Source of the DNA: a virus
Virus record (IMG/VR): IMGVR_UViG_3300048625_000556
Span: 1-25,332 of that record
Reading direction: 5' to 3' (one strand)
DNA length: 25,332 nt
Part shown: piece after piece, positions 8,278 through 25,242 of the stretch
How positions within the stretch are numbered: position 1 is the stretch's first letter
How the letters are laid out: every line of letters starts with the position of its first letter
Position numbers and translations under genes: made by a program
The notes under the pieces: generated by a model
Databases searched by the model: none
What the model saw: only the letters and a program-made list of their open reading frames with translations
What the model was told of the DNA's origin: nothing

Positions 8278-8523
8278 ATGGTGACCACGACCAACAAGAT
8301 TAAGAAGATCGGAAATGGTCACTTCATACCTCTGTCTGCTGTGACAATGGACGCATTACAACTACGCGCGGGGCAACAGGTCACGCTTTCGACGGATAAT
8401 GGCACATTAATCGTACGTACCGTCGACGATGCCTACGCCAAAACACGCGAGGCTGCCTCTAAGGTAACCCAAAGGTATCGGCGCACCCTTGTTAAGCTTG
8501 GTCGCGAAGGCGAAATAGCGTGA
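8278..8523 (+). CDS. AbrB/MazE-type antitoxin
   Basis: An 81-residue predicted swapped-hairpin AbrB-fold protein. The N-terminal half (KKIGNGHFIPLSAVTMDALQ, then LRAGQQVTLSTDNGTLIVRT) matches the 'kIGNs..ipLp...l..l.l..G..v.l...ggtlii' pattern of MazE/AbrB/SpoVT antitoxins. The C-terminal tail (YAKTREAASKVTQRYRRTLV) would wrap and neutralise the toxin. The stop overlaps the toxin GTG by 4 bp. It would also repress its own promoter, probably through the CGTATAAACA repeats upstream. Confidence 0.75.
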   Translation: MVTTTNKIKKIGNGHFIPLSAVTMDALQLRAGQQVTLSTDNGTLIVRTVDDAYAKTREAASKVTQRYRRTLVKLGREGEIA

Positions 8524-8927
8524 CCGCAGAGGGTAACGGTTACGGTTGGCCGAATGCTGATGCGATCCTGGACGAAACTGCGGAGTTCATGGAGTCCATG
8601 GGGCATCGAATGGTATTAAACGACCGCGATGCGTTTGAAGCCGGGCTTGAACGAGCGAAGGCGGCGGCCGAATACCAACCCGAGGCCAAATTAGCCTATC
8701 TCGCTGCATTGATGTACGATGGAATCGCGACGCGACATGCATTTCTAGATGGGAACAAGAGGGCGGGTGCGATCGCAGCACTAACTTTTATCGCCATGAA
8801 CGGTTCGTTCCTCGATGTGTCAGAGAATGAACTGGAAGGTAAATTACGAGCGCGCGTTGCGGGCCAACTGAGTGTCAACGACCTGGCAGAGTATTTCGAG
8901 GCGAATATCTATCCGGAAATTGAGTAA
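8520..8927 (+). CDS. doc: Doc-family (Fic fold) toxin
   Basis: A 135-residue death-on-curing toxin. Doc kinases phosphorylate elongation factor EF-Tu and arrest translation. The active-site motif HAFLDGNKR at residues 73-81 matches the Doc form HxFx(D/N)xNKR rather than the AMP-transferring Fic form, and the flanking helices (LAALMYDGIATR, AGAIAALTFIAMNG) are typical. The GTG start at 8520 overlaps the antitoxin stop, so the two are translationally coupled. Doc is classically paired with Phd, whereas here the partner is AbrB-like. The cassette is a phage moron: its own promoter region, lower GC and unrelated neighbours. Confidence 0.85.
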   Translation: MTAEGNGYGWPNADAILDETAEFMESMGHRMVLNDRDAFEAGLERAKAAAEYQPEAKLAYLAALMYDGIATRHAFLDGNKRAGAIAALTFIAMNGSFLDVSENELEGKLRARVAGQLSVNDLAEYFEANIYPEIE

Positions 8928-20629: not shown

Positions 20630-21568
20630 ATGGCACGAGCCCATGGGGCGCGGGCGCAGATGGCGCTTGCGTTCGAGACTGTTTACGGCACGGCGCCCGC
20701 CACGGGGTTCCGCACGGTGCCGTTTGCCAGCACCACACTTGGGTCTGAGCAGCCCTTGATTGCATCAGAACTCTTGGGCCAGGGGCGCGATCCGCTGGCC
20801 CCGATCCGGGATGCCGTCACCGCCGATGGCGATGTCGTGGTGCCAATCGATGTCGAGAACCTTGGCTTGTGGCTGAAGGCGGCTTTCGGGGCGCCTGTCA
20901 CGTCCGGCACAACGCCGAAAACCCACACCTTCCAGTCTGGTAACTGGACGCTGCCGAGCCTGGCCATCGAGACGGCGATGCCCGAGGTGCCGCGCTATGC
21001 GATGTACACGGGCTGCGTTTGCGATCAGCTGAGTTGGCAGATGGGGCGCTCGGGGCTCCTAACGGCGACGGCACGATTGGTCGCGCAGGGTGAAAGCGTC
21101 GCGGCTGCGACGGCCGCGGGCACGACGACTGCGCTGGCACTGCAAAGGTTCGGGCACTTCAACGGGTCCATCACCCGCAACGGCGCGGCCCTTGGCAATA
21201 TCATCTCTGCGGAAGTGACCTATTCGAACGGGCTCGACCGGATCGAAACCATAAGAAGTGACGGGCGCATCGAGGGCGCAGACCCCGGCATGGCGGGGCT
21301 CACCGGACGGATGGAGGTGCGTTTTGCCGACACGACCCTGATCACACAGGCGCTGGATGGAACCCCTTGCGAGTTGGTCTTCGGCTGGAGCCTCGGGGCC
21401 AGCGCCAGCTTTACCTTCACCGCCCATGCCGTTTATCTGCCGCGCCCGCGTATCGAGATCCCCGGGCCGCAAGGCATTCAGGCCACGTTTGATTGGCAGG
21501 CCGCAAAGGCTGCAAGCCCCGCACGCCTGTGCACCGCCGTCCTCGCCAACACCGTTGTAGGATACTGA
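20630..21568 (+). CDS. Phage tail tube protein
   Basis: A 312-residue protein with N-terminal ARAHGARAQMALAFETVYGT and the central segment DGDVVVPIDVENLGLWLKAA, FGAPVTSGTTPKTHTF typical of the Siphoviridae tail tube family (Phage_TTP). It would polymerise around the tape measure. AGGAG lies 7 bp before the ATG. The C-terminal half resembles an additional beta domain (SASFTFTAHAVYLPRPRIEI). It is followed 2 bp later by the G gene. Confidence 0.88.
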   Translation: MARAHGARAQMALAFETVYGTAPATGFRTVPFASTTLGSEQPLIASELLGQGRDPLAPIRDAVTADGDVVVPIDVENLGLWLKAAFGAPVTSGTTPKTHTFQSGNWTLPSLAIETAMPEVPRYAMYTGCVCDQLSWQMGRSGLLTATARLVAQGESVAAATAAGTTTALALQRFGHFNGSITRNGAALGNIISAEVTYSNGLDRIETIRSDGRIEGADPGMAGLTGRMEVRFADTTLITQALDGTPCELVFGWSLGASASFTFTAHAVYLPRPRIEIPGPQGIQATFDWQAAKAASPARLCTAVLANTVVGY

Positions 21569-21570
21569 CC

Positions 21571-22008
21571 ATGATCAGACTGAACCTGACAACCACCCCT
21601 GCATGGCTGACCCTCGCGCCTGGCTTGCGTTTGCAAGTAGCGCCGCTGACCACCGCGCTTATGGTGTCGGCCCGTGCCGACCCCTCCATCGAGACCTTGC
21701 CCGAAGGCGCCAGCCAAGAAGCCCTGGCGCTTGCCATGGCAAAGGCCATCGCCCGTCGCGCGGTACTGGATTGGGACGGTGTTGGTGATGATACGGGCCA
21801 GCCCCTGCCTGTTACCCCCGAAGGCATCGACGCCCTTCTCGAGATCTGGCCGGTCTTCGAGGCGTTCCAGACCCAATACGTCGGCAAGGGTCTGATCCTG
21901 GATGCCGAAAAAAACGTCTCCGCGCCCTTGCCGAATGGTCCTTCGGCGGGGGCGAAAGCTATTGCGCCGCCTGCGCAGGGCGCTGCCCCGACTGTCCGGC
22001 ACGATTGA
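21571..22008 (+). CDS. Tail assembly chaperone G-like protein
   Basis: A 145-residue helical protein (LEIWPVFEAFQTQYVGKGLI, preceded by MAKAIARRAVLDWDGVGDD) in the slot of lambda G. It would bind the tape measure during tail assembly. The ATG at 21571 follows the tail tube stop by 2 bp. The zero-frame end is Ala/Pro-rich and low in information (APLPNGPSAGAKAIAPPAQG). After residue 115 lies a slippery A AAA AAC. A fraction of ribosomes should shift to -1 there and make a 223-residue G-T fusion. Confidence 0.8.
   Translation: MIRLNLTTTPAWLTLAPGLRLQVAPLTTALMVSARADPSIETLPEGASQEALALAMAKAIARRAVLDWDGVGDDTGQPLPVTPEGIDALLEIWPVFEAFQTQYVGKGLILDAEKNVSAPLPNGPSAGAKAIAPPAQGAAPTVRHD
21909..21954 (+). promoter_or_regulatory. 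-1 programmed ribosomal frameshift signal
   Basis: The heptamer A AAA AAC (21909-21915) is in the correct phase (GAA AAA AAC in the G frame). After a 7-nt spacer, 21923-21935 pairs with 21942-21954 in a 13-bp stem with two U.G pairs and a 6-nt loop. The -1 frame is open from here to 22241. Slippery site, spacing and stem are all standard. Confidence 0.8.
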
Positions 22009-22241
22009 ACCAGCCGTTAACATTTGAGGGTTGGCAGGTCTGGGACCTTGTAGGCCGGCTTGGGGGTCAGTTGCGCATCGTCCCCGGCGCGGTGATCGGC
22101 TGGGACATGGGAGCCGCGCTGGCAATGGCGCAGGCCCTTGGAGTCAATACGCTGATCACAGCAGAGTTGCTGCCCGTGATCGAGGCGGTGACGGTGCGCA
22201 AACTGAACGAGCAGATCGGAGAGGCGCAGATAGATATCTGA
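22005..22241 (+). CDS. T part of the G-T tail chaperone, made by frameshift
   Basis: The frame encodes NQPLTFEGWQVWDLVGRLGG and ITAELLPVIEAVTVRKLNEQ, a small helical protein similar to those following G in Rhodobacterales phages. Its only independent start is a TTG at 22005 with no ribosome binding site. The frame is in fact open back to the slippery site at 21915, so the natural product is the G-T fusion. The extra 30 residues before 22005 contain CAACAGRCPDC, a CxxC-x3-CxxC cluster. The stop is 5 bp from the convergent antitoxin gene. Confidence 0.75.
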   Translation: MNQPLTFEGWQVWDLVGRLGGQLRIVPGAVIGWDMGAALAMAQALGVNTLITAELLPVIEAVTVRKLNEQIGEAQIDI

Positions 22242-22246
22242 CGCCG

Positions 22247-22537
22247 TCAGCCCGCGAGCGTGCGCTGAACGATCTGGGGGTCTTTGGAAATCAGCGCCAA
22301 CAGAACCCGCGCAGGTCCATCTGGGCTGCGACGACGCTGCTCCCAGTTCAGCAATGTGCCCTTCTTGACCCCGATGCTGCGGGCGAACTCATTCTGTGAA
22401 AGACCCGTGCGCGCGCGGATCGCCTGCACGTCAGGTTCCGGCAGATCAATCTGATGGACCACGCCCAAGGCTTCGCCACGGGCGTGCGACAGCGCTTCCT
22501 TCAGGCCCTGCTCGATACTCTTGAATGCGTCGGTCAT
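22247..22537 (-). CDS. XRE-family antitoxin (NadS/HigA-like)
   Basis: A 96-residue helix-turn-helix protein. HTH region: IRARTGLSQNEFARSIGVKK, then TLLNWEQRRRSPDGPARVLL, typical of antitoxins that follow their toxin gene. AGGAGA lies 5 bp before the ATG, which overlaps the toxin stop (ATGA). It would neutralise the RelE-like toxin and repress the shared promoter. It lies on the strand opposite to the tail operon. Confidence 0.85.
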   Translation of the reverse strand: MTDAFKSIEQGLKEALSHARGEALGVVHQIDLPEPDVQAIRARTGLSQNEFARSIGVKKGTLLNWEQRRRSPDGPARVLLALISKDPQIVQRTLAG

Positions 22538-22875
22538 GTCGTTCTCCTGTAGGTCGCCGAAAGCAGTTCGCCCAAGGATCTGACAGCCTCGGCCTCGGCA
22601 CTCGTCAGATTGGCTTTCTCGTTCTTGGCAAAGACGGTGATCAGAAAGATCGGCGTGCCGTCATCCGCGTTGAAAAAATGGATCACGCGAAAGCCGCCGC
22701 TCTTGCCGCCACCGTCTCGGGCAAAGCGAAACTTCCTGACCCCGCCCCCGATTGACACACCCGTTCCCGGATTGCGCGCCACGAAATCGATCAGGGCCAG
22801 TCGCTCGGCCTCTGACATCAGGCTGCGCGCACGGCGCTGGAATTCGGGTGTTTCGACGACGGTGACGATGGCCAT
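22534..22875 (-). CDS. RelE/HigB-type toxin
   Basis: A 113-residue RelE/ParE-fold toxin, typically a ribosome-dependent mRNA endonuclease. Key segments are VETPEFQRRARSLMSEAERL, GVRKFRFARDGGGKSGGFRV, IHFFNADDGTPIFLITVFAK and the C-terminal AKNEKANLTSAEAEAVRSL. The R-x-x-x-R and basic strand residues expected of RelE/HigB members are visible. The ATG at 22875 is chosen; another at 22884 lies within the -10 of the promoter. The candidate transcription start falls on or next to the start codon, so the mRNA may be leaderless. Toxin comes first, then antitoxin (higBA order). Confidence 0.85.
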   Translation of the reverse strand: MAIVTVVETPEFQRRARSLMSEAERLALIDFVARNPGTGVSIGGGVRKFRFARDGGGKSGGFRVIHFFNADDGTPIFLITVFAKNEKANLTSAEAEAVRSLGELLSATYRRTT

Positions 22876-22881
22876 GACACC

Positions 22882-22910
22882 CATATGTGCGCCAATGGCG
22901 CATATGTCAA
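22882..22910 (-). promoter_or_regulatory. Promoter and operator of the toxin-antitoxin cassette
   Basis: On the minus strand TTGACA (22910-22905) is followed after exactly 17 bp by CATATG (22887-22882) at the -10. TGCGCC-AAT-GGCGCA (22888-22902), a 6-bp-arm palindrome, fills the spacer. A regulator bound here would block RNA polymerase, as XRE antitoxins do. The -10 is weak (3 of 6 consensus bases). Confidence 0.6.
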
Positions 22911-22938: not shown

Positions 22939-25242
22939 ATGGCCGAAAAACGCGTTTCCGTGCGCCTTGTCGCGGTTGGCGGGCGGCAGGTTCGCGCCGA
23001 ATTGGAGGGCATTGGCGAGGCTGGAAGCAAAGGCATTGGCCGTTTGTCCTCCGAGATGACAACAGCCAATGCGCGTCTGGCAAGTTTTGCGACGAAAGCC
23101 GGCATCGCTTTCGCGGCGATGACGGCCGCGGCCGCTGCAGCCGGTGTGGCAATGGTGCGCTCCGGCCTGCAAACCATCGGCGCGCAGGTTGATATGGCGG
23201 CCTCGCTGGATACGACGGTGGAAAGTTTGCAGGTTCTGACCTGGCCGGGCGAATTGGCGGGCGTCTCGATGGGTGAGATCGAGACCGCCACCCGCAAGTT
23301 GACCGGTCGGTTGTCTGAAGCGGCAACTGGTTCGGGGGCTGCGGTCAAAGCGCTGGATCGGCTGAATCTGTCTGCGGGCGACTTGCAAAAGCTACCGCTG
23401 GATGAGCGGTTGATTGCGATCCAGGAGGCCTTGGTGCGGTATGTGCCGCAGGCCGAACGCGCCGCAGTGGCGTCAGACCTGTTTGGCGACAAGGCAGCTT
23501 TGGCCTTCCTGCGCATTGATCCGGCCACGTTGCGCGAAGCAGCCCAAGATGTGCGCGACTTCGGGGTGGCGGTCAGTGCCGCAGACGCAGCCCAGATTGA
23601 TCGGGCGGGCGATGCGCTGGCGCGGCTGAGCCTTGTGGGGCTTGGCCTGACCAACCGCCTGACGGCGGCTCTGGCCCCTGCGCTGGAGGCGCTTGCCAAT
23701 ACGCTGGCAGCGGCGGCGCGCGGGACAGGGGTTTTGGGTGCGGCACTTACAGGGGTTTTTGACAACCTCGGCCGGCTTACGACTTACGCTGCGAGTTTTG
23801 CGGTCGTAATGGCGGGACGCTGGGTGGCAGGGCTGGCCGCAGCCGCATTGTCGGTGCGCGGCCTCGCCACTGGTCTCGTGGTCCTGCGCGGCGCGTTGAT
23901 CCGCACCGGCATCGGGGCGCTGATCGTTGGGGCGGGGGAACTGATCTACCAGTTCACGAGACTTGCCGAAAAGGTCGGCGGGATCGGTGCGGCCTTTGGA
24001 CTGTTGCGTGATGTGGCGGCTGAAGCCTGGGACCGCCTCGCCTTGGCAGCCACGGCCGTCTGGTCTCGCGTCGAAGCGGGTTGGGCCGGGGCGCAGGCGG
24101 GGATTTACGAAGGGGTGCAATCGGCCCTGTCGGCTGTCTTGGGCTGGGGCAACAGCGCTGTCGGCACATTCCAAGGTGCGTTTGACGCGGTGAATGCGAT
24201 CTGGGGAGCCTTGCCGCAAGCCATCGGCGATTTTGCCTTCCAGGCCGCGAATGGGCTGATCGACGGGGTGGAGTCGATGCTGAATGCGGTCGTCACCCGC
24301 ATCAACCTCTTCATCGAGGGCCTGAACGCGGCACTGGCCTTGCTGCCAGACTGGGCCACGGGCGAAGGCGGGATCAAGATTGGCACGTTGGAAGCTGTCG
24401 ATCTTGGTGGTCTGACCAATCCTTTCGAAGGTGCAGCCTCGGCTGCAGGCACGGCGGCGGCGGATGCCTTCCGCGCCGCGATGGGCAAGACCTATATAAA
24501 TCCCCCAGATCTCTTCGGCGGCATGGCAGAGGCGGCAAAGACGCGCGCTGCGGGATACTCCGAGGCGGCGGGTATGCTGTCGGAAGCAGCGTCGCGCCCG
24601 ATGACGGCTTGGGAAGCCCTCAAGGCGGCGATAACCGGTGCAGGTGCTGAAGAGGAAGACGCGTTGAATGATGCCGCTGCGGCGGCAGGTGCTTTATCTG
24701 ATGAGTTTGACGAGGCAGGTCGATCTGCGGGCGGCGCAGGTGGCGCTGCCAAGAAGGCCGCTGAGGAGGCCGCCACCGGCTGGGCGCAAGTCACGAAGTC
24801 ATTGGCCGATTATGCCAAGGGCGCGATGGACTGGGGCAAGGGTCTCGGCGAGACGCTGACCTCGGCCTTCAGTTCGGCCGAAAGCGCGTTCCGGGATTTT
24901 GTCACCACCGGCAAGCTCGACTTCAAGGGGCTGATCTCCTCGATCCTGGCGGACCTTGCCACCCTGGCCTTCAAAAACTCGGTGCTGGGACCGATTGCCT
25001 CGGCCCTCTCGGGCGCCTTCGGCGGAGGCTTGTTTGGCGGTGGGGGCGGTGCCGGTATCAATCCGATGGTCAATGCCAGCATCTGGCATACCGGCGGCAC
25101 GGTGGGTGCGACTACAACGATGCGGTCGGTGCCAGCTTCTGCCTTTGCCGCAGCACCCCGGATGCACGCTGGCGGTTGGGCGGGTCTGAAGCCTGACGAA
25201 GTACCTGAACCGCGCCGGATTTGCTGGAGACCTTCAACCTGA
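22939..25242 (+). pseudogene. Tail tape measure protein, 3' end replaced by IS3-family insertion
   Basis: A 767-codon frame, lambda H type. The N-terminus (AEKRVSVRLVAVGGRQVRAE) and long helical/hydrophobic middle (ASFAVVMAGRWVAGLAAAAL, VLRGALIRTGIGALIVGAGE) are typical of a protein that sets tail length and is ejected into the host. The C-terminal module (YAKGAMDWGKGLGETLTSAF, GLISSILADLATLAFKNSVL) is the conserved lambda_tail/TMP end. Homology ends at GWAGLKPDEVP. The last residues (EPRRICWRPST) come from the IS, so the normal end, often a further 50-70 residues, is missing. Confidence 0.85.

Follow-up and report, generated by a model that had tools for sequence, protein, structure and literature searches.

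A Probable Lambda-Type −1 Frameshift Signal Linking a Tail Assembly Chaperone to a DUF7697 Extension in a Prophage-Like Sequence

Frameshifted tail chaperones and the locus in the window

The conservation of −1 frameshifting in the tail chaperone genes of phages is well established (Xu et al., 2004, as cited in PMC5009743), with the G/GT chaperones of phage lambda serving as the classical example (Levin, 1993; Xu, 2004; Xu, 2013; Xu, 2014; all as cited in PMC5009743). The lambda genes are ordered tube, G, T and tape measure, the shift occurs near the 3′ end of G, and the GT fusion is made in small amounts. Tape-measure chaperones with the slippery heptamer A AAA AAC have been reported for Caulobacter phage phiCbK and Acinetobacter phage Loki, and with G GGA AAC for Caulobacter phage Colossus (PMC3556154; PMC5313236), and the tail chaperone of the haloarchaeal virus HCTV-2 likewise carries A_AAA_AAC (PMC5009743). 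Rhodobacter capsulatus phages RcKemmy, RcKvothe and their relatives encode a joined “tail assembly chaperone” with an annotated frameshift (PMC8601537), homologous over the whole fusion considered here at 43–45% identity; the portion of that paper's text that was found does not describe the frameshift site itself.

The window analyzed here, the whole 25,332-nt stretch of IMG/VR record IMGVR_UViG_3300048625_000556, is a prophage-like viral contig that can probably be placed in the Rhodobacter/Paracoccus group, its host being judged from relatives in Rhodobacteraceae and other alphaproteobacteria. Its gene G (21571–22008, + strand) encodes a zero-frame product of 145 aa that matches the “Tail assembly chaperone” family phrog_313 (E 9.7e-24); the AlphaFold2 model of G has a pLDDT of 87.8, with the last four residues disordered, and the HK97 chaperone 2ob9 ranks second among its fold matches, not significantly (E 1.7). 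Pfam identifies the neighbors on either side, namely a tail tube gene upstream (20630–21568; Phage_tube_2) and a lambda-type tape measure gene downstream (22939–25242; Tape_meas_lam_C), and the G/T pair therefore lies between the two, as it does in lambda.

Within G, codons 113–115 read GAA AAA AAC (21907–21915), and the heptamer A AAA AAC (21909–21915, + strand) thus stands in X XXY YYZ phase. A 7-nt spacer (21916–21922, + strand) separates it from a hairpin (21923–21954, + strand) with a 13-bp stem, in which 21923–21935 (CGCCCTTGCCGAA) pairs with 21942–21954 (TTCGGCGGGGGCG) through a helix that includes two U·G pairs, closed by the 6-nt loop TGGTCC. The −1 frame is open from 21792 to a stop ending at 22241, overlaps the G frame by 90 nt, and from 21915 to 22241 (+ strand) supplies a T extension of 108 aa, so that a fusion of G residues 1–115 with this T domain would comprise 223 aa. 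An earlier note on this DNA had described the heptamer, spacer, stem, open frame and fusion, all of which were confirmed base for base, and it had rightly pointed to lambda as using the same strategy with a different heptamer (G GGA AAG there, A AAA AAC here). Its description of the heptamer as unusual for a bacterial phage does not hold up, given the reports for phiCbK, Loki and Colossus, and for HCTV-2 outside the bacteria; moreover, Rhodobacter phages such as RcKemmy already have this frameshift annotated, by way of a joined CDS, in the same protein family.

The locus also differs from lambda in its strong, conserved hairpin and in a T half that bears a four-cysteine motif and has no sequence similarity to any solved structure. 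It shares with phiCbK, Colossus and Loki the two heptamers, the place in the operon and the joined CDS, and its T model resembles the chaperones of Loki and Colossus (E 0.02 or worse); in phiCbK and Loki, however, the zero-frame stop directly follows the heptamer rather than leaving a 90-nt overlap, and the cysteine motif is missing from the T halves of these two phages. RcKemmy has G GGA AAC with a matching hairpin, unlike the A AAA AAC of the window.

Taken together with the homologue comparisons below, the signal very probably directs programmed −1 ribosomal frameshifting as in lambda G/GT. Most ribosomes would stay in the zero frame up to the G stop at 22008 and yield the 145-aa chaperone. 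A ribosome whose P site is on AAA and whose A site is on AAC would be held by the hairpin that lies 7 nt ahead; on a minority of occasions, its two tRNAs would move back by one base, from A AAA AAC to AAA AAA, and translation would continue in the −1 frame to 22241, giving G residues 1–115 followed by the 108-residue T domain with its DUF7697 part. By analogy with lambda, excess G would coat the tape measure protein, and a few copies of GT would bring in tail tube subunits. We infer the slippage itself, its rate and this division of labor between G and GT; GT would be made in small amounts, as in lambda. Among the points against the reading, A_AAA_AAC slips far less readily in E. coli than A_AAA_AAG does (PMC5009743).

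Genes of another kind occupy the space between T and the tape measure gene. The gap in the window is filled by two reverse-strand genes, a RelE-type toxin and HTH antitoxin pair (22247–22884, − strand), and 35 of 186 relatives carry more than 400 nt inserted at the same junction, on the reverse strand (e.g., L010, L020, L024, L001, L086, and L074). These inserts mostly encode a protein of ~126 aa that looks PIN/VapC-like by eye only, and others look RelE/HigB- or HigA-like; the junction appears to be a hot spot at which toxin-antitoxin-like genes are carried as cargo. Elsewhere in the window (8278–8927, + strand), a small AbrB/MazE-looking ORF without a Pfam match overlaps a Fic/Doc-family ORF, which looks like a second toxin-antitoxin pair.

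Conservation of the site and of the −1 frame

Conservation was assessed in 81 non-redundant homologues, whose T halves share less than 90% identity, with values as low as 30%. An in-phase site is present in 80 of them, as A AAA AAC in 70, G GGA AAC in eight and A AAA AAA in two, the remaining one being an out-of-phase contig, and the pattern also holds in relatives with 30–65% identity. The homologue check for conservation of heptamer and stem that had been proposed earlier was thereby passed. AAAAAAC is found at the equivalent place in 160 of 165 loci, a count in which one prophage can appear both as a genome copy and as a viral copy. The loci kept from the homologue searches numbered 160, beyond which lie 345 genome and at least 598 viral loci. 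As the sequences were chosen by their heptamer, the zero diversity of codons 113–115 is circular, the unfiltered figure being the 160 of 165. Scans with single distant T halves returned few or no new loci.

The alternation of A AAA AAC, G GGA AAC and A AAA AAA is as expected for tandem slippage. Lysine codons elsewhere in the G genes of the group are predominantly AAG (138, vs. 25 AAA); AAA is nonetheless the codon at the site, and none of the homologues read uses AAG in the A site. A tRNA-Lys(CUU) was considered as the reason for this avoidance and is not supported, given that among the 42 tRNA genes of a Paracoccus yeei draft only tRNA-Lys(UUU) and tRNA-Asn(GUU) are present for these codons. 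Five rare loci count against the frameshift reading. In the viral contig L083 the heptamer is AGAAAAC and both frames stay open, L018 has AAAGAAC next to masked bases, and three (L112, L120, and L173) have one A fewer and are out of phase. All five may reflect sequencing error, decay of the copy or genuine loss of the site. In a different respect, the zero frame stops within one codon of the heptamer in L169, L179, L175, L223, and L235, as against the 90-nt overlap of most relatives, and the G tail of ~30 residues is therefore optional.

Beyond the heptamer, it is the −1 frame that is conserved, from its first codon onward and down to about 30% identity. Mean identity over T residues 1–14 is 90% in the −1 frame vs. 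74% in the overlapping zero-frame tail, and over residues 15–30 it is 75% vs. 56%. No ATG, GTG or TTG occurs in the −1 frame of the window between 21792 and a TTG at 22005, and none is found within 150 nt after the heptamer in 55 of the 81 homologues, or within 180 nt in 15 of the 81. These counts support the view that the T half has no usable translation start of its own in most homologues. The annotation of one cyanophage treats the T half as a hypothetical protein of its own, which begins 120 nt past the site.

The hairpin and the rival explanations

The segment 21909–21960 folds with a ΔG of −25.0 kcal/mol (z −3.26), a stability reached by none of 200 dinucleotide shuffles, and none of ~3,600 33-nt windows sampled along the record matches the site segment in folding stability. 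Because both are conserved in homologues, the occurrence of heptamer and stem together is far beyond chance. Given that overlapping frames alone could create a false signal, the contribution of the RNA was separated from that of dual coding in three ways, by synonymous diversity, by shuffling and by homologues without overlap. Synonymous diversity in the T frame falls to 0.28 of expected in codons 1–14, which cover the stem and, with codons 1–3, the spacer, and stands at 0.74 in codons 15–30, which also overlap G, and at 0.75 in the non-overlapping rest. Likewise, synonymous shuffles of the T frame give weaker hairpins, with a mean z of −2.59 over the 81 homologues and 66 of the 81 below the 5% level. 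Finally, five homologues have a zero-frame stop one codon after the heptamer and therefore no dual coding under their stem; their hairpins have z values of −2.9, −2.9, −2.6, −1.8, and −1.2.

Covariation adds to this evidence. In 20 sequences that share the stem register, 94.2% of stem cells pair, and three stem pairs are changed on both sides (shuffled mean 0.6). As this subset was picked by its register, and the register slides among distant members, the covariation is modest and supporting rather than decisive: the compensatory changes sought by the earlier note are present in those three pairs, but not as a fixed stem throughout the family, and hairpins are weak in some distant members (L177, L244, L226, and L209). 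The results nevertheless support selection on the spacer and hairpin as RNA, apart from dual coding, and a stable hairpin 5–9 nt past the heptamer under such selection is what characterizes a −1 signal with a stimulatory structure. Additional elements were considered and rejected. A pseudoknot partner left no sign, as T-frame codons 15–30 are without extra synonymous constraint, and a signal of the dnaX type (Shine-Dalgarno, A AAA AAG and hairpin) is not supported, as a Shine-Dalgarno-like stimulator ~10 nt upstream is present in only three of the 81 homologues, a point that also speaks against the frameshift reading.

These data also bear on the ways in which the sequence could be read without a stimulated ribosomal shift. 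T might be a normal gene of its own, with translation beginning at the TTG (22005–22007, + strand) through coupling to the G stop, since G ends in the TGA of TTGA (22005–22008) and phage operons often have stop and start codons that overlap. That this TTG is the only other start for T, and that it lacks a ribosome binding site, was already remarked in the earlier note and is borne out, no Shine-Dalgarno sequence being visible before it by eye. Only three of the 81 homologues have a start codon at this place, on which ground the TTG was rejected as the start of T, and thirty conserved residues, including four cysteines, precede it and could not be made from it; we regard a separate T gene as extremely improbable. 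A stem that arises only because two codes overlap in G+C-rich DNA, with slippage proceeding unaided, would agree with the weak or shifted stems of some distant members and is improbable rather than extremely so; synonymous diversity is suppressed in the stem region (0.28) but not in the remainder of the overlap (0.74), and stems are retained where the zero frame ends directly after the heptamer.

The fusion might alternatively arise from altered mRNAs rather than slipping ribosomes, through transcriptional slippage on the run of seven A (21908–21914), which stands out in G+C-rich DNA. Seven A is, however, short for transcriptional slippage. Eight of the 81 homologues have G GGA AAC, without a long run, and L139 has GGGAAAAAAC with the heptamer retained, and the constraint on spacer and hairpin fits a ribosomal stimulator; hence, even though bacteria are known to show such slippage at runs of A (reviewed in PMC5009743), it is very unlikely here. 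The lambda-type −1 ribosomal frameshift proposed in the earlier note is, by contrast, supported by the homologue comparison through the site, the missing T starts and the RNA-level constraint. Gene position, the chaperone family of G, a conserved in-phase heptamer ahead of an open −1 frame and a T half without a start are all found at this locus, as in lambda G/GT.

The T half and its family

The −1 extension ends in a match to PF24752 (DUF7697; E 5.9e-26) and phrog_11212 (E 2.6e-28), both families without an assigned function. The two models, 52 and 55 positions long, cover only T residues 53–105 (22080–22226), i.e., the last ~52–55 residues, even though the homologues align from the first codon. 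This suggests that the DUF7697/phrog_11212 models were built from mini-ORFs called at internal starts, and genome annotation probably misses the front half of T in most prophages.

That front half holds a four-cysteine motif, C-x2-C-x3-C-x2-C, at T residues 17, 20, 24, and 27 (21963–21995, + strand). The C..C..C..C pattern is present in 240 of 243 homologues and a strict YCxxC in 77 of the 81 non-redundant ones; the spacing is variable (CxxC...CxxC-like), with longer inserts in the relatives of L177 and L179. Lying inside the overlap and read in the −1 frame, the motif can be made only by frameshifting, and the four cysteines hint at a metal site that the frameshift product alone would have. 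The AlphaFold2 model of T has a mean pLDDT of 92.7, including the part encoded in the overlap, and its best viral fold matches are tape measure chaperones, among them those of Loki and CcrColossus, with probabilities of 0.9–1.0 but E values of 0.02 or worse; sequence and fold searches of the PDB with T gave nothing significant among solved structures. It is tempting, albeit doubtful, to view DUF7697 as the C-terminal portion of a separate class of chaperone extensions made by frameshifting, whose front would contain a metal-binding four-cysteine knuckle; a metal-dependent step in tail initiation would then be open to the minority GT and never to G.

Tail chaperone frameshifting and both heptamers are established, and the present locus is another instance of them. 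What the sequence comparisons would add is the identity of DUF7697, a cysteine motif confined to the frameshift product, quantitative evidence for RNA-level selection on spacer and hairpin, and the strength of the conservation, which would place the signal among the better conserved −1 signals of bacteria. A domain family of unknown function, DUF7697/phrog_11212, would become the T half of a tail assembly chaperone, the first ~55 residues of which are absent from the family models and the long form of which is mostly missing from databases. In addition, the natural variants of heptamer and stem could serve to calibrate frameshifting in alphaproteobacteria, in which A AAA AAC takes the place of A AAA AAG.
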